This document shows, in pieces, positions 6,957 to 60,494 of a stretch of 64,000 bases of DNA (its first letter is position 1; each line of letters starts with the position of its first letter). Position numbers and translations under genes: made by a program. The stretch comes from a virus. Where the stretch lies: positions 1 through 64,000 of IMG/VR virus record IMGVR_UViG_3300037504_000682. One strand, given 5' to 3'. Below the pieces are notes generated by a model. That model saw only the letters and a list, made by a program, of their open reading frames with translations. It had not been told where the DNA came from and searched no databases.

Positions 6957-7387
6957 TGGGAAGGGCTGACAGCAGGCTTGATTATGACCGGGTAGCCACC
7001 ATTTTGGTGGAGGCTGCTTTTTTTGGTGATAGTCAAGCTGCCGAGCGGTGGGGTGTATCGGAGCGGACGGTACAAAGATACCGAAAGAGAATGGGCAAAA
7101 GTGACGAACTGTCGTCTATTGTCGCCTTAAAAAAAGAAAATTTTGAGCAAAACTGGGCCGATGAAATCCCCGCCGCTATTCGCTCTGCTACCCGTTTTTT
7201 GATGAACGCCAGCCGACAGGCCGACCCAACGGACCCGGCCGCCATTCACGCCGTAGCCGGGGCGATGAAAATAATGGCCGAAGTTGGCTTAACAAAGGAA
7301 ATCTTAGATGTTCGGCTTGGTCGATACGATAGACCGAACGGAGAAGAAAATAGACAGGTGGATAGTATCCCAGCCTCAACAGGGTAG
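6956..7387 (+). CDS. terminase small subunit-like protein
   Basis: GTG start overlapping the preceding stop (TAGTG). Residues 25-46 (DSQAAERWGVSERTVQRYRK) form a helix-turn-helix of the type used by terminase small subunits to bind pac/cos DNA; the remainder is helical and suited to oligomerisation. It directly precedes and overlaps the large terminase, the standard gene order. Assigned by context plus HTH. Confidence 0.65.
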   Translation: MGRADSRLDYDRVATILVEAAFFGDSQAAERWGVSERTVQRYRKRMGKSDELSSIVALKKENFEQNWADEIPAAIRSATRFLMNASRQADPTDPAAIHAVAGAMKIMAEVGLTKEILDVRLGRYDRPNGEENRQVDSIPASTG

Positions 7388-8750
7388 GGACGAGTTGCCA
7401 TTCACCGACTTCGTTAACCGCGTCAACCCCCGGTATGAATGGTACGGATACGCCCGGCGACTTGCCGGCCTGTTGCAGCAGGTGGCGGACGGGGAGACAA
7501 AGCGGCTTATGATATTTATGCCGCCCCGCCACGGCAAGAGCGAGCTTGTCAGCCGGTTATTTTCGGCATATTACCTTTACCGCCATCCGGAGCGATGGGT
7601 GGGTATCAGCAGCTACGCGGCTGAGCTGGCCTACACCTTTAGTCGCAACGCTCGGGACAACTACACCAGAGCGGGTGGCACGCTCAAGAGCGACGCCAGT
7701 GCGGTGAAACATTGGGAGACCGGGCAAGGCGGCGGCCTGTGGGCGGCTGGGGTTGGCGGGCCTATTACCGGCCGGGGCTTCCACCTGGGCATTATTGACG
7801 ACCCAATCAAAAACGCTGAGGAGGCCGCCAGCGAGACAATCAGAGCAAAACACAAGGACTGGTATGACAGCACCTTCTACACCCGCGAGGAGCCGAACGC
7901 CGCCATTGTGGTCATTCAGACCCGGTGGCACGAAGATGATCTGTCCGGCTACCTGCTCAGCAAAGAGCTAGACGAGCCTGAGCAGTGGCGCATCGTCCAC
8001 TTTGAGGCAATCAAGCGAGAGGATGAGCCGGACTACCCGCAAAGCTGCACCACAGAACCGGACCCGAGGGAGCCGGGTACAGCCCTGGCCCCGGAGCGAT
8101 ACGACATTGACCGGCTGCGGCGCATCAAGGGGCGCATTGGGGATTATTTCTTTGCGGCGCTTTATCAACAGTGCCCCCGCCCCCGTGAAGGCAATATGTT
8201 TAAGCGGGAGTGGTTCGACATCGTTTCGGCCCCACCCGCCAACGCCCGGCGGGTTCGGTACTGGGACAAGGCCGGCACTGCTGACGGCGGAGCCTATACC
8301 GCCGGGGTGAGAATGTCGGTCGATGAGAATAGCGTCTACTACGTAGAGGATTTGGTTAGGGGCCAGTGGGGAGCAGCGGAACGAGAGGCGGTCATCAAAC
8401 AGACCGCCCAGATGGATGGGCGGGACGTGGGTATCTTTGTGGAGCAGGAGCCCGGCAGCGGCGGCAAAGAGAGCGCAGAGGCCACCATCCGCAATCTGGC
8501 GGGCTTCACCGTTAAGGCCGACCGGGTGACCGGAGACAAGGTGACGAGAGCGGAGCCATTCGCCGCCCAGGCCGGTGGGCGCAACGTCAAGCTGGTCAAG
8601 GCCGATTGGAACCGGGGCTATCTGGACCGGCTGATGTCGTTTCCCCACGGGACGTATAAAGACGACATCGACGCCTCAAGTGGGGCGTTTAACAGGTTGG
8701 CCGAGCCGATAGCGGTCCAATACCAAGAACACAATCCATTTTACGGATAG
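7308..8750 (+). CDS. terminase large subunit
   Basis: Packaging motor ATPase/nuclease. Walker A-like PPRHGKS (72-78), Walker B LGIIDDP (160-166), coupling motif QTRWHEDDL (204-212), then an RNase H-like nuclease domain with YWDKAGTADGG (319-328) supplying metal-binding aspartates. At 480 aa, length is normal. The ATG at 7308 overlaps the small subunit by 80 bases; no later start is better supported. Unrelated in detail to the second terminase at 58935. Confidence 0.88.
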   Translation: MFGLVDTIDRTEKKIDRWIVSQPQQGRDELPFTDFVNRVNPRYEWYGYARRLAGLLQQVADGETKRLMIFMPPRHGKSELVSRLFSAYYLYRHPERWVGISSYAAELAYTFSRNARDNYTRAGGTLKSDASAVKHWETGQGGGLWAAGVGGPITGRGFHLGIIDDPIKNAEEAASETIRAKHKDWYDSTFYTREEPNAAIVVIQTRWHEDDLSGYLLSKELDEPEQWRIVHFEAIKREDEPDYPQSCTTEPDPREPGTALAPERYDIDRLRRIKGRIGDYFFAALYQQCPRPREGNMFKREWFDIVSAPPANARRVRYWDKAGTADGGAYTAGVRMSVDENSVYYVEDLVRGQWGAAEREAVIKQTAQMDGRDVGIFVEQEPGSGGKESAEATIRNLAGFTVKADRVTGDKVTRAEPFAAQAGGRNVKLVKADWNRGYLDRLMSFPHGTYKDDIDASSGAFNRLAEPIAVQYQEHNPFYG

Positions 8751-28700: not shown

Positions 28701-29000
28701 TCATTCTTTCCTCCCCGGCAGAAATTTTCTCACTCCCGCCGCCAGGCCAGGCCGCCGCGCCGGCGGCTCGATGTAGTAATAATTCTGCCGGCCAATGGCC
28801 TTCCGATAGGCGATTTTACAGCCGGTGTAGGTGATCAAAAGCAGAGCCAGGCCCCCTGCCACAGACCAGATGATCCCGATGATCTGCTGAGCAATCACCA
28901 GGGCCGCCGTGGCCAGCACCAGGGCGGCAGCCCCAAATAGTACATAGCTCCAGGTCCGCAGCCATTCCACTGGTCCGTCCCAGTCATCTCTGTTGGTCAT
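28701..29000 (-). CDS. small membrane protein, 99 aa
   Basis: ATG at 29000 after GAGGCCAAAA. Two transmembrane helices (about residues 18-36 and 41-60), then a basic tail (RKFLPGRK). It lies at the end of the DNA-transfer operon, just after the octamer array. A spread (Spd)-type or accessory transfer role is conceivable. Confidence 0.5.
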   Translation of the reverse strand: MTNRDDWDGPVEWLRTWSYVLFGAAALVLATAALVIAQQIIGIIWSVAGGLALLLITYTGCKIAYRKAIGRQNYYYIEPPARRPGLAAGVRKFLPGRKE

Positions 29001-29038
29001 TTTTGGCCTCGATTCTCTCTGATTTAAGTGCGACACCC

Positions 29039-29153
29039 CCACGACAAAGCCACGACACCGGCCCGACCACCTACGACGGCGCTACGACAGCCTCCCCCGG
29101 CCGCCCCCGCCCCGGCGTAGCCCTGTCGTGGCTATGTCGTAGCATTGTCGTGG
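29039..29153. repeat. inverted octamer array ((C/T)ACGACA), clt/TRS-like
   Basis: Octamers at 29039 and 29050 (CCACGACA), 29071 (CTACGACG) and 29082 (CTACGACA) face inverted ones at 29113 (CGGCGTAG, degenerate), 29124 (TGTCGTGG), 29135 (TGTCGTAG) and 29146 (TGTCGTGG). Neighbours are 11 bp apart (8 plus 3). The right cluster overlaps the last codons and stop of the FtsK/TraB-like gene. Actinobacterial TraB translocases recognise repeated octamers (clt) next to traB; this has the same layout. Confidence 0.7.
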
Positions 29154-30406
29154 CCCCGTCGGGCCTCATCAGCCCGCTTTAGCAGCTCCTTGATCTCCTG
29201 GAGCTGCCGGCCGTTAGGCTTGTCGGTGTCATAAAACTCCCGGGCGATGGCCGTCACCGATTCCCCGGCGGCGTGCATCGCCTGGGCCTGGAGTACCCGG
29301 GCGTCCGGCAGCTCCAGGACCACCTTCCCAGCCGGCTGGGCGTAGCCCGGGAACGGCCCCGGCAGGGCATACTCGACCGGCCGGGCCTTGCTGCCATCCG
29401 GATTGACCTTGCTGTTGGGATGGATGAAGGCCCGGTGAGGCTCGCCCTGGCCGCCGATCAGCTCGACCAGGATGGCGCTCTTCCGGATAGCCGCGCTGAT
29501 CCCCAGGGTGTCGACATTCGGCGAGTGGGTGATCACCGTCAAATGGATGTTGACCTTCCGGCTCTCCGTCAGAAGCGTCTCGAAATACTCGCCGGCCCGT
29601 TCCACCTTCCGCTGGATGGAGGTCCACTCCTCGATAAAGACGCTCACCCGGGCGTGCTGGCCGTAGCCCATCAGCCCTTCAGCCACGTCGGTATAGCGGC
29701 TGGTCATCATCCAGACCAGCGACTGGAGAGCGTTGGCGATGGCCTCATAATCCCGGCCGGCCCCGATCACGTCGATCCCCAGCACCTTACTGGGGGAATG
29801 AGGGTCAATCATCACGATCTGGCTATGATCCGCCCGGCTGGCGATAAGATGCTTGACCAGGGTCGACTTGCCGGCATCCGAGCCGCCGGTGATGATCAGG
29901 CGCTGAGCCGGGGTCAGCTTGGGCAGGATGGGCGCAAGCGACGGCCCCTCCTCCGGCGGGGCCAGCTGGGCCACCTGCTGGGCCTGCCGCGCCGCCCGGC
30001 CGTGGGCGACGTTGAACAGCTCATAGCGCCCCACCTCGTCCCGGTCGAAGGCCGAGGGGTGACCGTTGATCCGGCCAGGGATCAGATGCAGAGGGATGGT
30101 GATAGTGGTGCCATTGGCCTGAGTGAGATAGACCTGCTGGCCAGGGTCGGCCACGGTCACCAGGACACCCGCCTCCAGCCGGGCCTTATCGGCCCGGGCC
30201 CGGGCCTCGTCGCTCTCGTAGCGCTTTCGGTTGACCAGGTGCCGGGCCATCAGGGCCAGGCCGACCACAAACACCAGGCCGGCCAGGGCCATCGAGCCGG
30301 CCACGACCAGCAGGATCAGGCCGACCTCGTACCGGTAGACGCCGGCCAGGTAGATGGTCAGGGCCGTGCCGCCGATTGCGATCAGGACCTTCCAGATAGT
30401 ATTCAT
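29132..30406 (-). CDS. FtsK/TraB-like membrane-anchored DNA translocase
   Basis: A 424-residue protein. Two N-terminal transmembrane helices (5-25, 28-54), then an FtsK/HerA-type ATPase: Walker A GGSDAGKST (174-182), Walker B SVFIEE (255-260), later ILVELIGGQGEP. The C-terminal 60 residues contain a helix-turn-helix-like AAGESVTAIAREFYDT, where FtsK and TraB carry their DNA-reading winged helix. ATG at 30406 follows GATGGGAGT. With the DUF2637 protein and the octamer array it forms a conjugative-translocase-like set; a phage packaging or segregation role is the alternative. Confidence 0.75.
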   Translation of the reverse strand: MNTIWKVLIAIGGTALTIYLAGVYRYEVGLILLVVAGSMALAGLVFVVGLALMARHLVNRKRYESDEARARADKARLEAGVLVTVADPGQQVYLTQANGTTITIPLHLIPGRINGHPSAFDRDEVGRYELFNVAHGRAARQAQQVAQLAPPEEGPSLAPILPKLTPAQRLIITGGSDAGKSTLVKHLIASRADHSQIVMIDPHSPSKVLGIDVIGAGRDYEAIANALQSLVWMMTSRYTDVAEGLMGYGQHARVSVFIEEWTSIQRKVERAGEYFETLLTESRKVNIHLTVITHSPNVDTLGISAAIRKSAILVELIGGQGEPHRAFIHPNSKVNPDGSKARPVEYALPGPFPGYAQPAGKVVLELPDARVLQAQAMHAAGESVTAIAREFYDTDKPNGRQLQEIKELLKRADEARRGHDNATT

Positions 30407-30682: not shown

Positions 30683-31423
30683 TCACCCCCTGACCTTCCC
30701 ATTGAGTGCCCGTAGGTCACGCCGGATGGTCGCCCGGCTCACGTCCAGGGCATCGGCCATCTCGGTCTGGTTCATTCCCTGTTCATGTAGCACCATAACC
30801 TGTTCACGTCTCTGTTCAATGGCCAGGTCTCTGGCCTCGTTGGCCTGGTCTAGTCCGGTCATTTGGGTGGCCATTTGGTGATGTTCACCCACTTTGGCCT
30901 CTTTGACCTGGTCACTGACCCGGGCCAGGGCCTCACGGCGCTGACCGATCTGGTCATTCAGGTGGTCAATCTCTGTCCGGGCCTGGTCCACCCGGGCGGT
31001 CATCTCGGCCAGGGTGGTCACCAGCCCTGACCGTTCGATCCGAACCTTGACCAGTTCCCTGAGCACCTCGGAGGCCACGAGCAGGGTCACCGGCGGCAGG
31101 GCGGCCACGAACCAGGCCACCGAATTGGGCGGGGCGTGCAGCACGTTGCCGGTGATGGTGATCACCCCGTAGGCCAGGATCAGGCCGATGAGCCATCGCC
31201 GCCGGACGCCGATCAACTGGAAGGCGAGCAGGACGGCCGTGAACACGACCAGGGCCACGTCCACAATGACCGGCCATATCCAGGCCAGATGAGCCGGCTT
31301 GCCATTGGTTATAGCCAGATCGTTCAAGGCCTCGAAGCTGAGCACAAATGAGCCCAGGGCGATCAGTGCAACGGCCACCACCACGGCCAAAGAAACGGAA
31401 TCGATCAGCTTGTTGTTCATCAT
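30683..31423 (-). CDS. DUF2637/SpdB-like membrane protein with C-terminal HTH
   Basis: A 246-residue protein with four transmembrane helices in residues 5-120 (SLAVVVAVALIALGSFVL; WPVIVDVALVVFTAVLLAF), matching DUF2637, found in spread and transfer loci of actinobacterial plasmids. A coiled coil (130-170) follows and then a clear helix-turn-helix, EQGMNQTEMADALDVSRATI (near 215-234). The HTH suggests that it binds DNA at the membrane. Confidence 0.68.
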   Translation of the reverse strand: MMNNKLIDSVSLAVVVAVALIALGSFVLSFEALNDLAITNGKPAHLAWIWPVIVDVALVVFTAVLLAFQLIGVRRRWLIGLILAYGVITITGNVLHAPPNSVAWFVAALPPVTLLVASEVLRELVKVRIERSGLVTTLAEMTARVDQARTEIDHLNDQIGQRREALARVSDQVKEAKVGEHHQMATQMTGLDQANEARDLAIEQRREQVMVLHEQGMNQTEMADALDVSRATIRRDLRALNGKVRG

Positions 31424-31918: not shown

Positions 31919-32740
31919 CTACTCCCGTGTCTCCCCGGCTGGATACTCCTCCCGCCAGGGCGACCACTCCAAATTGCCCTTGAAAAATACCGGCACCTCC
32001 CACCCGTCCAGCACGGCCAGCAGCCGCTCGACGTGCCCCGGCTCCGGCTGGTAGTAGGTCCGGCCGCTGCTGGCCGCCCCGATCACCGCCCACCGCAGGG
32101 CATCGGGGTACTGCTCGACGATCCCCGACACGTCCCAGCTCAGCGGCTCAAAGCTCATCCAGGTGACGAGGTCATCCGGCAGCTCGCTCAAAACGGCCAG
32201 CGCCTTGTGCAGCAGTCGCTCCTGGTGGTGGCGACCCAGCCGGCCGCCGTGCATCCAATCCGGCGGGGAGCTGGCCCCCGGCCAGAAATTGGCCGGAAAA
32301 TCAAACCGCTCCATCCGGATCGGGTTTTTGGTCAGGCTCAGGAACGTATGCCAGCTGGCCTCCCGGCAGACATCGAGAACCTGCTCGACCTGGCCGGCCG
32401 GCACCCAATGGCCGAAGAGGTCCGACATTGAGTCCAGGAAAATGCGCGATGGCTGGGTGACCTTAAGCGGCTCCTCCAGCCGTTCAGGGTGCCAGTAGTG
32501 GTGCTCGAAGCCTTCCGGGTAGGCGGCCCTGGCCACCCCTTCGGCCACGGCCTCGGCATAGCAGATGGCCACCGTGCCGTCGGGCATCTCCCACCGGCAG
32601 CGGTGTTTGCAGCCGCCGGGCACGTTCCAGGTGTAGCCCCGGCTCTCGTGGCCGTCCGGGTGGATGGTTTTGCACCACTCGATTCCGCCGGCGACCTTCT
32701 GGAGGCCGTCTACCATCACCAGTTTGCCTTGTTTGTTCAT
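31919..32740 (-). CDS. DUF5131 (phage Gp37/Gp68-like) protein
   Basis: A 273-residue protein. Cysteines at GGCKHRC and ICYAE (C-x3-C-x11-C) follow a WNVPGG turn, the metal-site region of DUF5131, a radical-SAM-related family common in phages; the spacing between cysteines is longer than usual. Later FLSLTKNPIRM and VTWMSFEPLSWDV are typical barrel strands. ATGA-coupled to the preceding gene. The substrate is unknown; association with a TGT-like enzyme makes base modification plausible. Confidence 0.68.
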   Translation of the reverse strand: MNKQGKLVMVDGLQKVAGGIEWCKTIHPDGHESRGYTWNVPGGCKHRCRWEMPDGTVAICYAEAVAEGVARAAYPEGFEHHYWHPERLEEPLKVTQPSRIFLDSMSDLFGHWVPAGQVEQVLDVCREASWHTFLSLTKNPIRMERFDFPANFWPGASSPPDWMHGGRLGRHHQERLLHKALAVLSELPDDLVTWMSFEPLSWDVSGIVEQYPDALRWAVIGAASSGRTYYQPEPGHVERLLAVLDGWEVPVFFKGNLEWSPWREEYPAGETRE

Positions 32741-33450
32741 ACCGTCGCCTCCTGAAATAATGGCAGCTGCAACCGCCAGCCAACCGCGTGCAGCCGCGCT
32801 CGATCTTTGAATAAATCAGGCGGGCTGGCCAGATACCGCCTGACGTTTCTGGCGCTCATTCTCATTAGCGTATGGCTGTGGAATCGATTCCTTACCTCCC
32901 GCCAGGTATTTCGCCTGGCGCTCCAGAAAGAGCCGTAGTCCTGGGCCTTCTGGAAGATAGCCGAGCAGTCGAGGCTAACGATCCTGGACCCGGCATATTT
33001 ACGCATCAGGATCACATATTGATCAGGATGACCGCCCAGCAGGTGCAGCTTCCGGCCGGCGACCTCTCCAGACTCCGGTAAAAATCCGGCGTAGCTGGTG
33101 GGCACCGAGATAGCCACGATCACTCCGGCCGGAACGTCGGCCGCCGCCCCAGGGAATTTGGGGCAGACCATCGGCCAGCTGCCGGCCCCCAGCACGTCCC
33201 AGACCTGGGCCAACATCTCCCTCTTTTGGGCCGGCGATTCGTAATCGGCCACCATGGCCAGGTCAGGCTGCCAGAAGCGGATCACGGCCAGGTGCTCACT
33301 CCAGTCGTAATCCCGCCATTTGATGTCCACGAAGTAGGGCCGCCCGTAGGCCGTGGCGTCGCTCCGAAAGCCGTACAGCCATCCCTCGGCCTGGAGCAGG
33401 CGAGGGGCGTCCGGGTCGCCACCCCGGCAGCCGATCAGCTTCACGCTCAT
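32737..33450 (-). CDS. DpdA-neighbour protein (TGT-like barrel / DUF6610-like) with clamp motif
   Basis: A 237-residue protein coupled (ATGA) to the DpdA-like gene. Strands WPMVCPKFPG, GVIVAISVP and KLHLLGGHPDQY follow the order of the TGT-type barrel, but the zinc motif is absent; similarity to DUF6610 is suspected, not proven. Residues 228-232 are QLPLF, a clamp-binding-like pentapeptide on the C-terminal tail. Likely a partner or shortened paralogue of the base transglycosylase. Confidence 0.5.
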   Translation of the reverse strand: MSVKLIGCRGGDPDAPRLLQAEGWLYGFRSDATAYGRPYFVDIKWRDYDWSEHLAVIRFWQPDLAMVADYESPAQKREMLAQVWDVLGAGSWPMVCPKFPGAAADVPAGVIVAISVPTSYAGFLPESGEVAGRKLHLLGGHPDQYVILMRKYAGSRIVSLDCSAIFQKAQDYGSFWSARRNTWREVRNRFHSHTLMRMSARNVRRYLASPPDLFKDRARLHAVGWRLQLPLFQEATV

Positions 33451-34370
33451 ACCGCCGCCACCTCCATCTGCCGCCGGTGGGCCCGCATCAGCATATTCTG
33501 GTTGTGAGCCGCCCGCCCCATATTATTCTCATTCGATCCATACGTCCGCGTATCCACCCCCTGCCGGCGCAGCACCTCGCAGGCCCGGCAGTCGCAGCGA
33601 GGCGCGGTGATCGGTTCAAGCAGCCGGTCCGGCCGGCCCCGTTCGGTCCGGGCCGCCTTATGCCGGACCAGCTCCCCATCCTGCTCCATAAAATAGATCC
33701 CGGCCGTGAAGGCTTGCTTGAAGTGACTGGAGCCGTCGAAGCTATTAATCCCCAACCGGCTCCACTGCCCCGCATAATCCGGCGAGGAGAGGCCCAGGAC
33801 GTGCAGATAGTGCCAGGGCAGCTCAGCCCGGATGGCCTCCACCGCCGCGATGTTATCCGCCTTGGCGCTGGCCCGGCCGGCCAGGCCACCCAGGGCGATG
33901 GCTTCATAACCCAGGTCGGCCAGCCAACGGGCGTTCTCTACCTTCTCGGCCAGGTCGACCCCGTGGGCCGTGACCACCGGCTCGAAGTCCGTCCCCGCCA
34001 CCAGCTCCAGGAACTCAGCAGCCGACCGGCGGTTGAATCGCCGGCGCTCCTCCAGGTTGCCGTAGCGACCGATTAACATATGGTCCGGAGCGATGAGGTA
34101 ATCGCCGGGCCGGGCCCGGGCCAGGTACTGCCGGAAGGCCCAGCCGGCCGTGACCCGTTCGCCGCGCAGCTGCGGCACCGCTTCGGCCCGGTAGCTCCAG
34201 GCCCCGCAGTCGAAGATCATTCGCTGGCGAGGCGGCAGGTCCTCCCGGGCGTAGGCCAGGGAGGTGAGCCAGCCGGCCGGTTGCTCGTCCAGGAACTCCC
34301 AGTAGGGCCGGGGCCGGCCGTCGATCTTGATATAGTCCCGGTTGCCGATCACGCCGAAGTAGCTACTCAT
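33447..34370 (-). CDS. dpdA: DpdA-like DNA (7-deaza)guanine transglycosylase
   Basis: TGT-superfamily enzyme, 307 aa. Zinc motif C259-D-C-R-A-C264 with H289 (CxCxxC..H), barrel residues MIFDCGAW (51-58, the position of the substrate-binding Asp), LGGLAGR (160-166), HVLGLSSPDYAG and NSFDGSS (209-215), where D212 matches the catalytic Asp of FDC in TGT. DpdA-type members insert 7-deazaguanines (preQ0) into phage or island DNA. No preQ0 synthesis gene (queC, D, E, folE) is in the window, so host preQ0 would be used. The start at 34370 overlaps the upstream stop. Confidence 0.72.
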   Translation of the reverse strand: MSSYFGVIGNRDYIKIDGRPRPYWEFLDEQPAGWLTSLAYAREDLPPRQRMIFDCGAWSYRAEAVPQLRGERVTAGWAFRQYLARARPGDYLIAPDHMLIGRYGNLEERRRFNRRSAAEFLELVAGTDFEPVVTAHGVDLAEKVENARWLADLGYEAIALGGLAGRASAKADNIAAVEAIRAELPWHYLHVLGLSSPDYAGQWSRLGINSFDGSSHFKQAFTAGIYFMEQDGELVRHKAARTERGRPDRLLEPITAPRCDCRACEVLRRQGVDTRTYGSNENNMGRAAHNQNMLMRAHRRQMEVAAV

Positions 34371-34560
34371 CGGCCGGCTCCTGGGGAAGGGCTCGCTGTG
34401 CAGCCTCCAGCTCTTCGTCAAGGATGAAGACAGCCTCGTCCAGGCTGCGACCCGGGCCGGGGCCATACTTGCCGATATAAGTCTTGAGTTGCGCCCTGAT
34501 TTGGTGAAGGTCTCTAATCGCCTGGGGACTGTTCTGGAACCTGAATGGTCGGGCGCTCAT
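34363..34560 (-). CDS. small protein, 65 aa, dpd-like operon
   Basis: ATG at 34560 overlaps the preceding TGA (ATGA), and its own stop overlaps the DpdA-like start. Basic N-terminus (RPFRFQNSPQAIRDLHQIR), acidic C-terminal helix. Probably helical; function unknown. Confidence 0.55.
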   Translation of the reverse strand: MSARPFRFQNSPQAIRDLHQIRAQLKTYIGKYGPGPGRSLDEAVFILDEELEAAQRALPQEPADE

Positions 34561-34839: not shown

Positions 34840-34918
34840 TATAATAGGGTCGGCCGGGAGATAGTGCGCTCGCCTGGCCGAGGCCCACCGGGTTACGGCC
34901 GGTGGGCCGGTTTTATTT
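34840..34918 (+). ncRNA. candidate small RNA on the plus strand
   Basis: TATAAT (34840-34845) is followed by a TCGGCC..GGCCGA hairpin and a 10-bp terminator stem GGCCCACCGG/CCGGTGGGCC ending TTTTATTTT. Flanking genes are all on the opposite strand, so the product would be an RNA of about 65 nt antisense to the junction of two operons. No good -35 is seen. The same hairpin lacks a T-run for leftward transcripts. Confidence 0.4.
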
Positions 34919-37432
34919 TGCCGTCTTGCCATTCATCGCCGGCTGAGCCACCCCTGCTGATTTGGCTTCCGTAGTCGCCAGCCAATCAAACAGGGTCGGG
35001 GCCAGGGCCTGCTGCTCAATTGTCTCGCAGTACCTGACGCCATTCTCGAAGTAGGTGTCGCTCAACTCGATCCCATAGCCGCGCCGGCCGAGTTTGACAG
35101 CCAGATACGGCACAGTAAAGAGGCCGGCGAACGGGTCCAGGATCAGATCATCTTCATTGCTATAGAGCCGGATGGCCCGCTCCACGATGTCAAACGGCAG
35201 GGGACACAGGTGGTTTTCCTGCTGCTTGCGCCGCTGCTCGCTGTTGAGGCAGCGCATAAAAACGATGTCGTCCCAGACCCAATCGCTGGTGCTGACCGGT
35301 GGCTCGTAGAAAAAATGAGCCGGCAGGTTGCCCGCCGCCTCTTTGGTTTCCAGCCGGGCCACGTGGGCCTCGTAGTCATAGAGCTCGGCCGGCTGCAGCA
35401 TGCCGTTTCCATTTGACCGCCAAAAGCCATGAGCTGCGATTTGCCACCGGGCCCGGCTGTAGTCGGCCTTGTCTTTAGTCACCGGCTCATCGGCGTATTG
35501 ATCAGAATTGTCGGTCGGCGGCTTTCGGAAAAGAAGCAGGTACTCCGGCAGGCCGGAACCCATCTTGGTGGCATCCTTGGTCATCTCGGTCCATCCCAGC
35601 CGGTATGTTGACGCGTTCTCCCGGACCACGTCGGTAACGATGGTCCGCCGGCCTTCGTACATCCAGCCGTGCTCCCGGAAAGCCATCACGCACTCATCAG
35701 AGAATGGCGCAATTTCGGTGAAGCCGTGGGGCGTCTGGTGGCCGTAGAGAACCCGGTCTTTGACGTGAATGGCCGCCACCCGGCCGGGCTTTGTCACCCG
35801 CAGGAGCTGGGGGATGAGAAAATCCATCTGCTCCCAAAACTCGACATCGGTCGAGTTGTGACCAAAGTCCTCGTACTGGATGGTATATTCGTAGTGATTA
35901 CCAAACGGGATCGAGGTCATAATCATATCGACCGAATTGTCCTCCAGCCGAGGCATCTCCAAAACACAGTCGTTATTGACCGCCGTGAATCGTTTGCCTC
36001 CCGCCTCCCGCCGGTCGATGCCGATCTGGCGCTTCAGGTCGCTGGTTAAGGCCGCGTGGGAAAGTCCATATTTTCTCACGATCCGCTGCATCTTCTCTAC
36101 CTGCCGCTCGTACTGGCTCCACTTGCGTTGAAGGGCCTTAACCACCTGATCTTCGCTCTCGGCGTAGATGATATGGATGTTAACCTCTTTTCCCTGCTGG
36201 AAGCGGTATAGCCGGTGAACGGCCTGGATGAAATCCTGAAACTTGTAATCGACACCCAGAAAGACGGCGTCCGAGCAGTAGTGCTGGAAGTTACAGCCGG
36301 ATCCGGCGATCTCCGGCTTGGTGGCCAGGATCGGGAACTGACCCCGGCTAAAACCCAGGATGCGCTCCTCTCGGAGCTCCAGGGCCTGGGAGCCGTAGAC
36401 GCTGATCGCGTCCGGGACGGCCCGCTCGATGGCCCGCCGCTCATCCTCCAGGTGGTGCCATAGGAGCCAGTGGTGGCCGGGATTGGCCTCGATGATCTCG
36501 ACCATCTTGCCTACCCGGGCGGCCATCGTGGCCCGCTTTTCGGCAACCGCCTCCCGGACCCCACCGGCCGCATCCAGAAACAGCCGGTGCTGGCCCCGGT
36601 TGTCGGTTTGCTCCCAGGCCCGTTGGTGGTCAACCGGGAGGCGGTGCCAGTGAACCTGAAGTGGCGGCAACTCGTAGCCCTCGTCTGAGTAGCCCAGGTC
36701 GCTGGGCTTGTAGACAAAGAGCGCCCAGCTGGCCACCCACAGCCAGAACTTCTTTTCCTGGTTGGGGATCAGGGTCAAATTGCCGGCCTTGTTCACGTCC
36801 CGCTGGAAAAAGCGGGTCAGGGCCTGGCCGTTGTCCATAATGTCCAGGAAGTTGGCGTAGTAAATAAGCTCCCGGTATCGGTTGGGGTCGGGAGTGGCTG
36901 TGCAGACCCACCGGTACGGGACGCCGGCAAAAACTTCGTTGAAGATGTGGTAGGTTTTGCTGTCCAAGCTCCGGAGGACGCTGCCCTCATCCAGGCTGAC
37001 TCCGGCGATATCATGCAGCCGGGGGTCGATGTCGCCGTCTCTAACCCGCTCGTAGTTGGTGATCAGATACGGCGTGTCTGCCGCCTCGATCTCGGCGTCA
37101 GTCCGGACGTACTGGAACCGGACGCCCATAGCGGGCCCGTCCTCTTCGGAAAACTGATGCTTTACCCCAAGGGGGCAAACGATAAGGAACTTACCGCCGC
37201 GGCGGCGGGCCAGAACCTGGCGGCCCAGCTCGATCTGGATTCTGGTTTTGCCCAGGCCAAAGCTCATTGCCACCAGAGCTCTCCCCTGGCGAGCAGACCA
37301 GACCACGGCGTCTCGCTGGTGAGGCTTTAGCAAGGCGGGGTCGAGATCGTTCGGGTCGAGATGGAAGCCGGCCCGGACGGCGATGTCGGCTTTTTGTTGC
37401 AGGAATTTGAGATAGTTACCGTTGTTGTTCAT
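34913..37432 (-). CDS. SNF2/DEAD-like helicase fused to DNA methyltransferase
   Basis: An 839-residue fusion. Helicase half (1-470): FGLGKTRI (58-65), DEGS (148-151) in place of DEAH, CTATPDP (177-183), AGSGCNFQH (376-384) and QAVHRLYR (403-410). Methyltransferase half: motif IV TSIPF (506-510) and, at the far C-terminus, motif I DPFAGLFT (766-773) with GYGIEL, the circularly permuted order of amino-methyltransferases (N6-A or N4-C). Both catalytic motifs are unusual (SIPF; GLFT for GSGT). Could modify or remodel replicating phage DNA. Confidence 0.75.
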   Translation of the reverse strand: MNNNGNYLKFLQQKADIAVRAGFHLDPNDLDPALLKPHQRDAVVWSARQGRALVAMSFGLGKTRIQIELGRQVLARRRGGKFLIVCPLGVKHQFSEEDGPAMGVRFQYVRTDAEIEAADTPYLITNYERVRDGDIDPRLHDIAGVSLDEGSVLRSLDSKTYHIFNEVFAGVPYRWVCTATPDPNRYRELIYYANFLDIMDNGQALTRFFQRDVNKAGNLTLIPNQEKKFWLWVASWALFVYKPSDLGYSDEGYELPPLQVHWHRLPVDHQRAWEQTDNRGQHRLFLDAAGGVREAVAEKRATMAARVGKMVEIIEANPGHHWLLWHHLEDERRAIERAVPDAISVYGSQALELREERILGFSRGQFPILATKPEIAGSGCNFQHYCSDAVFLGVDYKFQDFIQAVHRLYRFQQGKEVNIHIIYAESEDQVVKALQRKWSQYERQVEKMQRIVRKYGLSHAALTSDLKRQIGIDRREAGGKRFTAVNNDCVLEMPRLEDNSVDMIMTSIPFGNHYEYTIQYEDFGHNSTDVEFWEQMDFLIPQLLRVTKPGRVAAIHVKDRVLYGHQTPHGFTEIAPFSDECVMAFREHGWMYEGRRTIVTDVVRENASTYRLGWTEMTKDATKMGSGLPEYLLLFRKPPTDNSDQYADEPVTKDKADYSRARWQIAAHGFWRSNGNGMLQPAELYDYEAHVARLETKEAAGNLPAHFFYEPPVSTSDWVWDDIVFMRCLNSEQRRKQQENHLCPLPFDIVERAIRLYSNEDDLILDPFAGLFTVPYLAVKLGRRGYGIELSDTYFENGVRYCETIEQQALAPTLFDWLATTEAKSAGVAQPAMNGKTAK

Positions 37433-39973: not shown

Positions 39974-40879
39974 TTAAACCACCGCTCGTTGATCCGGCCC
40001 TACGACCTGGACTTGCGCCCATAGCTGGCCGGTAAGGCGGCTGAGTAGCGCTCCTCCGATGTCGGCCACGTAGCCACCTTGCCGCCGCCAGACATCAGCC
40101 AGATCGTCCAGGCTGTGATTGGCGGTGATAATCAACGGCTTCTCGTACATGTAGCGGTAGTGAATGACCTCATACAGTTTGCCCAGGGCCCATTCGCTAG
40201 GCATCCGCTTGTCGATGTCGTCTATCACCAGAAACGTGGCGTAATTCATCCCCCGCCAAAGCTGGCCCTCGGTCGGGCCGGGATTGTCGCTCTTGTCCCA
40301 GCTCTGCTGAACCCGGGAGCAGTGCAGAACCCACTCGACGAAGCGAACGGACAGGTTGGGCGGGCCGGCATCTATGGCGTCCCAGGCCATTTTGCGCAGG
40401 GCCGAAACGGCCAGGTGGGTTTTACCTACCCCGTACTCCCCCCCCCAGAGCCACAGCAGATTCCGCTCCCGGCTGTAGGTTTCGGTGTACTCAATGACAT
40501 CTCCTAGGTGCTTTCTGGCCAGGCCGTGACGGGCGATGTCCCAGTTCTCAAATGTCATCCGGGCGTAGCGGCCGGCGTCAATGCCGCCAGCCCGTGAAAC
40601 AATTTCCCCGTAGGCCGCCTGCTTCTCCTGGTGCTTTTGCTCTGCCAGCTGCCGGTTGCGCTCCTCGGTCACCGCCGGGCAATCACACGAAACACGCCAA
40701 TAAACGGTCACCTCGTCGCTCATCTGCATGCTGCCGGGCTCCACAATCCGGCCGCAGTGTTCGCAGCTGTAGCGGTACTCATCGGGACCTTGCTGCGATA
40801 GCTGCCGCTCTAGCACTGTGCCCAGCGGTAACGGTCTCTTCTGTCGGTCGTGGCTTCTTCCGTTTGCCTGAATGTCCAT
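39974..40879 (-). CDS. DnaC/IstB-like helicase loader ATPase
   Basis: A 301-residue protein. The N-terminal Cys cluster (CEHCG..CDCP, residues 39-70) resembles a zinc finger. Then Walker A GGEYGVGKTHLA, Walker B FLVIDDID, sensor LIITANHS. ATG 40879 has GGAGCGCAAA; the first 101 bases overlap the replisome organiser. The order organiser then loader is the usual phage replication module. Confidence 0.8.
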   Translation of the reverse strand: MDIQANGRSHDRQKRPLPLGTVLERQLSQQGPDEYRYSCEHCGRIVEPGSMQMSDEVTVYWRVSCDCPAVTEERNRQLAEQKHQEKQAAYGEIVSRAGGIDAGRYARMTFENWDIARHGLARKHLGDVIEYTETYSRERNLLWLWGGEYGVGKTHLAVSALRKMAWDAIDAGPPNLSVRFVEWVLHCSRVQQSWDKSDNPGPTEGQLWRGMNYATFLVIDDIDKRMPSEWALGKLYEVIHYRYMYEKPLIITANHSLDDLADVWRRQGGYVADIGGALLSRLTGQLWAQVQVVGPDQRAVV

Positions 40880-41720
40880 TTTGCGCTCCGTTCTTTCGTT
40901 CCACTTGCTGAATCTGCCCGGTGATTGTCTTGATCAAGCTACCCGGCGACTTGTGGGTGTACCGCCCCCTGTTTAAAATTTCTACAGCCTCGTCTATCAA
41001 CCCCCTCGCCCGGCCGACGTCACCCCCGGCCAGGTCTAAAATGTCGCAACAATCATCCTCCCACATCTGGGCGTCCGTAATCCCCCTGGGGGCGTTTCCG
41101 GTTTCTTGCTGGTAATAGGTGGCCAGTTGATCAGCCGGGTTTTGTTTCGGGATTTTTTCTCTAATTCCTTGTTCAGGGCCCTCTCTCGCATGCGCGTGCG
41201 CGATAGTAGTAGGAGTCTTTAAATTAACCTTCTCTTTAAACTTCTTATTAGGCCGCCGTTCTGGCGGCACGCTTCCGGAATGGTTCCGGCTTTCTTCCGG
41301 CAAGTTTCCGGAAGGCGGTTGGGCCTCCTGATCCAGGTTTCCGTCAGGTGTCGGGGCGTCCTGGTCATTGTCGCCGTCCTGGCTGCTGTCCTGGGGTGGC
41401 TCCGGGTAGGTTGACGTCTCCCGGTCGGCCCTGAGTCCGATCTGGTTGTCGTTGAAGCCGGGCCAGTATTGCCATTTTTCGCCGTCGGCTTCGAAGAGAA
41501 CGATCAGGCCGACCTTCTGCATCTCCTGGAGGTAGTGCTCCACCGCCTCGATTGAGACGTCGCTGCGCCAGGGGAAGACAAGGGAGCGGACCATCACCGG
41601 GTCACCGTAGAAGACGCCGTTTTTGTCCAGATGGCTGATGATCCAGGTGGCCAGGAGCCGGCAGGTGTCATCGGGGAGGTTTTTGAACTTTGAGCTGCGG
41701 CTGATCGAGTTGTTTACCAT
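40779..41720 (-). CDS. phage replisome organiser (DnaD/winged-helix-like)
   Basis: A 313-residue protein. The N-terminal part (SKFKNLPDDTCRLLATWII..GVFYGDPVMVRSLVFPW) is the winged-helix start of phage replication initiators; a long polar linker follows, then a DnaD-like helical segment (ADQLATYYQQETGNAPRGIT). ATG 41720 is preceded by AGAGGGCGA; ATG 41735 is an alternative. It would bind the origin and recruit the loader. Confidence 0.7.
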   Translation of the reverse strand: MVNNSISRSSKFKNLPDDTCRLLATWIISHLDKNGVFYGDPVMVRSLVFPWRSDVSIEAVEHYLQEMQKVGLIVLFEADGEKWQYWPGFNDNQIGLRADRETSTYPEPPQDSSQDGDNDQDAPTPDGNLDQEAQPPSGNLPEESRNHSGSVPPERRPNKKFKEKVNLKTPTTIAHAHAREGPEQGIREKIPKQNPADQLATYYQQETGNAPRGITDAQMWEDDCCDILDLAGGDVGRARGLIDEAVEILNRGRYTHKSPGSLIKTITGQIQQVERKNGAQNGHSGKRKKPRPTEETVTAGHSARAAAIAARSR

Positions 41721-41727
41721 TCGCCCT

Positions 41728-41979
41728 CTAGCCATTGGTGACCACCCCTTCCATCGCCGGTAGCTGCGCTCGCAGGGTCGTGATTTCCTCCCTGGCCAGC
41801 CGCGCTTGCTCCATATGGTAGAGGTATCTTCCCCAAAGTTCCTGGCCTCCATCCGCCACTTGATCGGCGTAGCCAAACCATCGACACCAAGCCCTGTTGG
41901 CGTCCCGGAGGTGTCGCTTCCGCTTATTGTGCTGCCGGTCGATTTCCGCCGTAATAGATTGTGTAATTATGCTTGTCAT
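41728..41979 (-). CDS. small basic protein, 83 aa
   Basis: N-terminal basic RQHNKRKRHLRDANRAWCRW and a C-terminal coiled coil. Upstream of the replisome organiser in the same operon. ATG at 41979 after AAAGAGCGGATTA. Unrecognised. Confidence 0.5.
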   Translation of the reverse strand: MTSIITQSITAEIDRQHNKRKRHLRDANRAWCRWFGYADQVADGGQELWGRYLYHMEQARLAREEITTLRAQLPAMEGVVTNG

Positions 41980-58279: not shown

Positions 58280-58942
58280 ATGGCAGTTGAATTAGTTTAC
58301 GGCGAGCGCAAAGAGCGCGAGACCAAAAAGGCGATCCTGGCCTGCAACGACTACTTGCGGATGGGACCCGGCCGGAGCTTACAGAAGCTACACGACCGTT
58401 ACCAGGCCGTATCCGAACCGTTACCACCAACCAGGCGAATTACCACCTTAAAGCGTTGGTCAAAGGATTTTGAATGGCAAAAACGGGCCGCTGATTACGA
58501 AGCCTATCTTGACCATCAAAAGACCGAAATGGCCGAGCGACGCCGGCGGCAGGCGATGGAGCAGGGCCTAGCCCTCGACTACGAGCGGGTCACCGTCCTG
58601 AAAAACCTGACCTCTCTGCTTCTGGGCGAGATGCTCAAAAAAGACCCGGCTACCGGCAAGTTGATCAACATCTGGCTCCAGGACGCCAAGCAGATCGGCT
58701 CCGGAATTGACGCCGAACGGGTCGACATCGAACACTTCAACGCCGCCATCATTCGGGAGCTGCGCGGCCTGCTGGACGACCTGGCCAAAGAGACCGGCGG
58801 ACGCAAGGAGAAACACGAATTCAGCGGACCGGGCGGCGGGCCGATCAAGACCGAAGACACCACGATGGACGACGATGGTCGGGCCCGGCGGATCGTGGAA
58901 CTACTGACCAAGGTCAAAGGGCGCGTGAGCGACGATGATTGA
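58280..58942 (+). CDS. terminase small subunit (second set)
   Basis: A 220-residue protein. The N-terminal helical DNA-binding part (ACNDYLRMGPGRSLQKLHDR..RRITTLKRWSKDFEW) resembles terminase small subunits with a Trp-containing recognition helix; the remainder is helical. Overlaps the large subunit by eight bases. Unlike the small subunit at 6956. Confidence 0.7.
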   Translation: MAVELVYGERKERETKKAILACNDYLRMGPGRSLQKLHDRYQAVSEPLPPTRRITTLKRWSKDFEWQKRAADYEAYLDHQKTEMAERRRRQAMEQGLALDYERVTVLKNLTSLLLGEMLKKDPATGKLINIWLQDAKQIGSGIDAERVDIEHFNAAIIRELRGLLDDLAKETGGRKEKHEFSGPGGGPIKTEDTTMDDDGRARRIVELLTKVKGRVSDDD

Positions 58943-60494
58943 CGAGTGGGAGGTCAGTCAGCTTCAGCAGCATATGACCGGCCGGGAGCGGGCCTACCTG
59001 GAGGCCTTGCTTTCTGACGAGTTCATTTCGCTCTCGCAATACATCCAGGCCGCCTGGCCCGTGGTCGAGCCGGCCACCGACTTCATCTCCAACTGGCATA
59101 TCGACGCCATCAGCGACCACCTGGAGGCGGTCACCTGGGGCTGGATCAAAAACCTGATCATCAACATCCCCCCGCGCCATATGAAATCCCTGACCGTCTC
59201 TGTCTTCTGGCCGACCTGGGCCTGGACCTGGCGGCCGGAGCTGCGCTGGCTCTTTGCCTCCTACGCCGAGAAGCTGGCCATCCGGGATAACGTCAAGAGC
59301 CGGCGAGTGATCAAATCGCCCTGGTATCAGGCCCGCTGGGGCCACGTCTTTCGGCTGACCGGCGACCAGAACGAGAAGATGCGCTTTGAGAACGACCGCT
59401 CCGGCTACCGGATCGCCACCAGCGTAGGCGGCAGCGCCACCGGCGAGGGCGGCGACATCATCGTGGTCGACGACCCCCACAAGATGAAGGAGGTCGAGAG
59501 CGACCTGATCCGGGAGGGGGTCCTGGACTGGTGGGATGAGACGATGAGCACCCGCCTCAACGACCCCAAGAGCGGCAATAAGGTGATCCTGATGCAGCGG
59601 GGTCACGAACAGGACCTGACCGGCCACGTCCTGGAAAAGATGGAGCAAGGGGGCGAAAGCTACGAGCACCTGTGCCTGCCGGCCGAGTATGAGCCGACCA
59701 CCTATGTGACGGCCATCGGCTTTGAAGACCCCCGCACTGAGCCGGGCGAGCTCTTGTGGCCGGATCACTTCGACCAGGAGGCCATCGACAACCTGAAGAT
59801 TTCGCTTGGCTCCCGGGCGTCTGCCGCCCAGCTCCAGCAGCGGCCCAGCCCGGCCGAGGGCGACATCTTTAAGAAAAAATGGTGGCGCTTCTGGATTCCG
59901 CCCGGCTCCAACCTGCCGCCTTACCGGATCAAGCTGCCGGACGGCTCTCTCTTTGAGTGCGAGCAAAGGGAGTTGCCGGCGTTTTTCACCGAGCAGCTCC
60001 AGAGCTGGGATATGGCCTTCAAGGACACCAAGTCCAGCGCCTTTGTGGCCGGCCAGGTCTGGGCCCGGCTGGGGGCCGACAAGTTCCTGCTCGACCAAGA
60101 GCGAGATCGGTGGGACTTCCCGGCCACCCTGGCCGCCGTCCGCCGGGTGACCACCCGCCACCCGGCCGCTCACGCCAAGCTGGTCGAGGATAAGGCCAAC
60201 GGGCCGGCCGTGATCCAGACCCTGCGCAGCAGTGTCGCCGGCCTAATCGCGGTCAATCCGGAGGGGGACAAAGTCTCCAGGGCCAACGCCGTGACCCCAG
60301 ACATCGAGGCCGGCAACGTCTACCTACCCCACCCGGCCATCGCGCCCTGGGTCGACGGCCTGATCGACGAGTGCGCCTCTTTTCCTAACGGCGCTTTCAG
60401 CGACCAGGTCGACACCCTGAGCCAGGGGCTGGTCCGGCTGAAGAAAAACGAGCAGCGGGATCAGAAAAGCAGGCCCCGCTCCCACAGTTTGTAA
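58935..60494 (+). CDS. terminase large subunit (second set)
   Basis: A 519-residue protein. NIPPRHMKS (about 76-84) is the Walker A-like loop, DIIIVVDDPHK-type strand with VVDDP the Walker B, LMQRGHEQDLTG the coupling motif, and SWDMAFKDTKSSAF starts the nuclease domain with further acidic residues (LVEDKANGP). Diverged from the terminase at 7308, confirming a second packaging system in the window. Confidence 0.88.
   Translation: MIDEWEVSQLQQHMTGRERAYLEALLSDEFISLSQYIQAAWPVVEPATDFISNWHIDAISDHLEAVTWGWIKNLIINIPPRHMKSLTVSVFWPTWAWTWRPELRWLFASYAEKLAIRDNVKSRRVIKSPWYQARWGHVFRLTGDQNEKMRFENDRSGYRIATSVGGSATGEGGDIIVVDDPHKMKEVESDLIREGVLDWWDETMSTRLNDPKSGNKVILMQRGHEQDLTGHVLEKMEQGGESYEHLCLPAEYEPTTYVTAIGFEDPRTEPGELLWPDHFDQEAIDNLKISLGSRASAAQLQQRPSPAEGDIFKKKWWRFWIPPGSNLPPYRIKLPDGSLFECEQRELPAFFTEQLQSWDMAFKDTKSSAFVAGQVWARLGADKFLLDQERDRWDFPATLAAVRRVTTRHPAAHAKLVEDKANGPAVIQTLRSSVAGLIAVNPEGDKVSRANAVTPDIEAGNVYLPHPAIAPWVDGLIDECASFPNGAFSDQVDTLSQGLVRLKKNEQRDQKSRPRSHSL

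Follow-up and report, generated by a model that had tools for sequence, protein, structure and literature searches.

An array of short repeats at the 3' end of a gene for an FtsK-like translocase is probably the recognition and loading site of that translocase, read by the C-terminus of the overlapping gene's own product. The array lies in a 99,175-bp contig held as an IMG/VR virus record (IMGVR_UViG_3300037504_000682), the first 64 kb of which form the window, i.e., the whole stretch of DNA analysed here. Arrays also stand beside homologous genes, and their repeated word changes with the DNA-reading tail of the protein; on these two observations the array is taken as the pump's own loading site.

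The array occupies positions 29028-29164. Its CYACGACA-type units recur at an 11-bp pitch in two blocks of opposite orientation, with six phased cores on the + strand and four on the - strand. The outer block (29028..29089, +) has CGAC cores at 29031, 29042, 29053, 29064, 29074 and 29085 (spacings 11, 11, 11, 10 and 11); three of its six phased units are exact octamers (29039, 29050 and 29082) and three are degenerate. A G+C-rich spacer (29090..29123) separates it from the inner block (29124..29164, -), whose four units have the opposite orientation, with cores that read GTCG on the + strand at 29125, 29136, 29147 and 29158 (spacing 11) and exact octamers at 29124, 29135 and 29146 only, the other core being degenerate. 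Exact octamers account for 6 of the 10 units. The inner block extends over the final codons and stop of the FtsK-like gene (29132-30406, -), the end of which reads GCT ACG ACA TAG CCACGACA, so that the TAG stop (29132-29134) is itself the 3-bp spacer separating two octamers. The initial annotation had described octamers on an 11-bp pitch in two inverted clusters, one of which overlapped the last codons and stop of a translocase gene. The units, the reading frame and its end agree with that description, and the limits are slightly wider than the 29039-29153 given there.

The array is real and exceeds chance. Across the contig, the longest core runs phased at 10 or 11 bp are those of six units and, on the other strand, four, both in the array; no run elsewhere exceeds three, and 60 dinucleotide-shuffled versions of the whole contig (99,175 bp) likewise gave three at most. 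An independent method, an 8-mer cluster score, placed the 1-kb interval of the array above 200 of 200 shuffles. The whole-contig octamer count, which had been proposed as a check, gave 10 CYACGACA sites in 99 kb against 4.4 expected; 6 of them lie inside the array, and the number of the others is close to expectation. Since the octamer is concentrated in the array and not dispersed, it does not have a KOPS-like genome-wide distribution. Outside the array, YACGACA occurs 12 times on the + strand and once on the - strand, and CGAC overall numbers 786 against 461 in the whole contig; the YACGACA strand bias is weak (about P = 0.02 by our own binomial estimate) and unexplained.

The product of the overlapping gene, P0001 (424 aa), is an FtsK-like membrane-anchored ATPase with an N-terminal hydrophobic segment, a motor, a linker and a putative C-terminal helix-turn-helix (HTH). 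Hydropathy and the helices at residues 2-21 and 27-78 indicate one or more N-terminal transmembrane segments, which are likewise present in most homologues. The motor is of the FtsK/SpoIIIE type, with its core at about residues 168-320 (29447..29905, -) and the P-loop GGSDAGKS. Pfam FtsK_SpoIIIE (PF01580) matches the 424-aa protein weakly (6.6e-5; 22.9 bits against a cut-off of 24) and passes the cut-off, at 24.8 bits, when the frame is read whole. The AlphaFold model of P0001 has a mean pLDDT of 60, with the motor at about 85, and its best structural matches in the PDB are FtsK motor structures (6t8b, E 1.4e-7), followed by TcpA of pCW3. Against TraB of pIJ101, only the motor was aligned by BLAST (E 4e-5), and hhalign gave 2.4e-6. 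The gene had been called FtsK/TraB-like, and the FtsK-like part of that name is borne out by the Pfam, pIJ101 TraB and 6t8b matches. The C-terminal HTH region (about residues 369-412; 29171..29302, -), which is the proposed reader of the array, has weak HTH_7 and HTH_38 matches and helices modelled at low confidence, and it has no clear sequence match to FtsK-gamma. In one relative, L020, the C-terminus is modelled as a winged helix with a mean pLDDT of 82.

The surroundings are those of a phage, as the initial annotation had supposed, with genes for terminase, portal, head morphogenesis, tape measure and a helicase-methyltransferase, and a replication-initiation-like gene (40779-41876). Just past the array starts the next gene downstream, which encodes a 99-aa protein with a hydrophobic segment (28701..29000, -). 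A DUF2637 membrane protein (30683..31423, -) with four hydrophobic segments and a clear C-terminal HTH (PF08279, 6e-6) is a possible partner of the translocase or an alternative reader. DUF2637 was rejected as an indicator of conjugation modules; it is not diagnostic, since in the three DUF2637-bearing Actinomycete plasmids examined no FtsK-like gene is annotated beside it. Elsewhere in the contig there are two large-terminase genes (7308-8750 and 58935-60494), which may belong to two adjoining phages or reflect a mosaic. Genes for DUF5131, DUF6610 and a TGT-like protein stand in a row at 31919-34466 (-) and may form a DNA modification module of the 7-deazaguanine type, and a helicase fused to an N6/N4 DNA methyltransferase (phrog_16, 8e-100) is encoded at 34913-37432.

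Homologues of P0001 were gathered by protein similarity alone and then scanned for arrays. Their sources were one Pseudanabaena plasmid, other cyanobacterial plasmids, cyanobacterial genomes and the viral contigs L009 and L016. Searches of IMG/VR, phages, plasmids and genome contigs yielded no close homologue of P0001; the phage and plasmid records gave one distant match only, P0001 was absent from the partial contigs of three TerL-related phages (59-65% identity), and the DUF2637 protein had no close relatives in IMG/VR. The comparison of arrays is one among divergent homologues, near relatives of the window array having not been found. When IMG/VR was searched with the array pattern, only L007 was returned, an unrelated phage contig in which tandem copies of CCACGACAAAT at 11 bp lie between two tail genes (L007:7554-7594), the last copy carrying the ATG of the next gene; it was judged a coincidence.

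The arrays use words of 7-9 bp that are particular to each lineage and are mostly arranged as two blocks facing opposite ways. The arrays overlap the stop or lie in the linker between the motor and the DNA-binding domain in L008, L009, L012, L016, L061, L063, L064, L074-L076 and L078, and they lie past one small downstream gene in L019-L023, L037 and L079-L081. Words near the gene 3' end are TGCTGACA (L008 and L017), GTAGAACC (L009), CCCGACA (L064), ACACTAC (L076), GGTAGAC (L061), GTCTACA (L075), GTCGAAC (L074), TGAAACG (L078) and GGCTTCCG (L012). L063 carries nine copies of CGGAACC within the linker-coding part, and the arrays past a small downstream gene (L019-L023, L079 and L081) use TTTAGTC, ATGAGACA, CTCAGGAT, TAGACGG, CTCATGAT and AAAGACA. 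L016 is a second phage, with terminase and portal genes, and its GATGGAC array lies over the translocase stop codon as in the window. By direct inspection, a GAC or GAAC core is common to many of the words, which would be compatible with a single reader family. L077 has neither a C-terminal reader, by inspection, nor an array. More short-word arrays occur away from the translocase (L017:4724-4868, L024 near +1639, and L061 at +984 and +2212) and are probably replication or partition sites.

The association was assessed in an interval from -420 to +610 around the stop, with homologues grouped at <60% identity (n = 26). A cluster score unreached by any shuffle was found in 17 of the 26 groups and at 12 of 86 control gene ends from the same loci (Fisher P = 9e-7), and 9 of 26 groups had no significant array in the 3' region. 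In 11 of 26 groups, against 2.6 expected, the interval contained the highest-scoring cluster of the entire locus (P = 1.6e-5, 1-mismatch 8-mer scan); without the window this was so in 10 of 25 groups (P = 8e-5). With an exact 7-mer scan the positional support was weaker (8/26, P = 0.002). The interval was chosen when a first few loci had already been viewed, which somewhat weakens all of these figures, the comparison with control gene ends included. A single switch of orientation, giving two opposed blocks, was seen in 12 of the 20 arrays with units in both orientations, against 1.8 expected (P = 5e-5). The initial annotation had proposed looking for the same array beside homologues and had named its absence there as an argument against the idea; arrays do stand beside most homologue groups, and their words differ by lineage.

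Comparison of relatives suggests which domain reads the word. In one close cyanobacterial family, identity is 79-96% among the motors and 26-81% among the C-termini. In Mantel tests, similarity of the array word went with similarity of the C-terminal domain (r = 0.64, P = 2e-4; r = 0.65, P = 2e-4 in the partial test), and the motor showed no such correlation (r = 0.10, P = 0.2). The Spearman form of the test was weaker than the Pearson form (r 0.31, P 0.02), because unrelated words mostly have near-zero similarity. The five most alike array pairs (L023/L037, L019/L079, L083/L085, L020/L081 and L019/L088) belong to proteins with C-termini 57-81% identical, whereas L020 and L022, with motors 96% and C-termini 54% identical, differ in their words. 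L088 has the N-terminus of L019, and its C-terminus and array word both resemble those of L019, but its P-loop motor is an entirely different one. A second family behaves similarly: L008 and L095, with C-termini 60% and motors 52% identical, have the words TGCTGACA and GTTGACA, and L008 and L018, with motors 87% and C-termini 42% identical, have TGCTGACA and TTGAGACA. As judged from these sequence comparisons, the word follows the C-terminal DNA-binding domain; it does not follow the motor, and this holds also for proteins in which another ATPase has taken the motor's place. For the window phage, homology suggests the C-terminus of P0001 as the reader. The reader class of the translocase family is also found in L083, L085 and L088 with the motor swapped for another ATPase, and zinc-ribbon C-termini take the place of the helix-turn-helix in L069, L024 and L011.

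In the proposed mechanism, the C-terminal DNA-binding domain of P0001 would read the repeated octamer, the motor would assemble on the array, and it would then pump the DNA of the phage through a septum or membrane. With two opposed blocks, motors would be loaded facing both ways. The process may serve virion-free spread between cells, or the segregation of a prophage kept outside the chromosome. A wider and more speculative idea is that modular address-reading pumps are common to phages and cyanobacterial plasmids, with reader and octamer array swapped as a cassette independent of the motor, and that in phages they might mediate a TraB-like, virion-free transfer of the genome, e.g., along filaments. 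A sequence-directed translocation site of the element's own, with a new octamer, had been suggested from the start; the arrays of homologues and a word that follows the C-terminus favour it. The match to pIJ101 TraB is limited to the motor, and P0001 is at most a candidate member of TraB proper.

Other explanations of the array have to be weighed. It could be a partition centromere bound by a small adaptor protein and not by the translocase. In parC of plasmid R1, 11-bp repeats form phased iterons in two blocks, so that the ParR-parC centromeres resemble the window array in this respect, and a role in segregation would suit an extrachromosomal prophage. However, neither ParA nor actin-like families were found among the scanned neighbours of the window array, and the array adjoins no partition NTPase. 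In some relatives an actin-like gene (ALP_N; annotated ParM/StbA in L012) lies several kb away, and L021 has a separate array with another word beside its actin-like partition gene, which points to a separate system. The array words follow the translocase C-terminus, and a centromere is considered unlikely. We give a similarly low probability to binding by the DUF2637-HTH membrane protein, or to an operator, in which case the array would act in regulation or docking and not in motor loading. That protein has a clear C-terminal HTH and belongs to the same gene block, and the second phage, L016, likewise has a membrane-HTH protein beside its array; but most relatives' arrays are at the gene 3' end or within the linker-coding part and not at a promoter, and the words of the cyanobacterial families track the translocase C-terminus.

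The inverted blocks might instead form an RNA hairpin, i.e., an attenuator or terminator between two genes, and the minus-strand RNA does fold to -88.9 kcal/mol (z -6.1). Such a hairpin needs neither an 11-bp pitch nor a repeated octamer and no T-run follows it, several arrays of the family are within coding sequence, and other arrays of the family fold hardly or no better than shuffles (z -1.0 in L063, +0.7 in L069 and -0.8 in L074), which makes this explanation very improbable. Iterons are frequent at phage replication origins, and the tandem CCACGACAAAT copies of the unrelated contig L007 have no translocase nearby. Yet the initiation-like gene is 11 kb from the array at 29.1 kb, and repeats arising by slippage fail to explain opposed, phased blocks and the family-wide association; an origin or a slippage product is just as hard to credit as the hairpin. 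Loading of the FtsK-like translocase on its own array is the reading we prefer.

Sequence-directed pumping of double-stranded DNA by a plasmid-type translocase is already known from actinobacterial TraB. New here are the carriers (phages and cyanobacterial plasmids), the division of the arrays into two opposed blocks, and the exchange of a reader along with its word. None of the papers searched describes such arrays in cyanobacteria or phages, although their absence from the literature is not thereby proven. A TraB-like logic would now extend to phages and to a range of cyanobacterial plasmids, with an address word particular to each. With this natural set of paired readers and words, the code by which such translocases recognise DNA can be tested directly, and for cyanobacterial plasmids typed as non-mobilizable the arrays offer candidate sites that would act in cis in transfer or stability.

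Among known systems, FtsK-KOPS and SpoIIIE-SRS have the FtsK motor fold in common with P0001, and their asymmetric octamers are read by a C-terminal gamma (winged-helix) domain (PMC2680272, PMC8190038). There, the octamers are dispersed and polarised over the chromosome, whereas here they form a local array beside a gene whose product has no clear FtsK-gamma match. TcpA of pCW3, which is among the best fold matches of P0001, and TdtA of Thermus are FtsK-HerA-type ATPases in DNA donation; in the parts of the source consulted, TcpA works with a T4SS-like system, TdtA is described without a recognised DNA-binding domain, and no adjoining octamer array is mentioned for either (PMC5365140). The actinobacterial TraB-clt/TRS systems of pSVH1, pJV1, pIJ101 and pWTY27 share with the present family a membrane-anchored FtsK-type motor and a C-terminal DNA-binding domain (putative in P0001), and also several 7-9-bp repeats beside or overlapping the gene 3' end that vary between elements. 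TraB recognises TRS octamers at clt through a C-terminal winged helix (PMC4170104), and the clt of pWTY27 comprises 16 bp inside the 3' end of traA plus 159 bp, with four footprinted TGACACC 7-bp repeats (PMC3583192). The present family differs in that P0001 is much smaller and its motor is only remotely similar to pIJ101 TraB, in the usual two opposed blocks, in its phage and cyanobacterial plasmid carriers, and in a reader domain that varies among HTH, winged helix and zinc ribbon. The best reading by analogy is that array and pump would work like TraB-clt of Streptomyces, a likeness of arrangement between remotely related motors.
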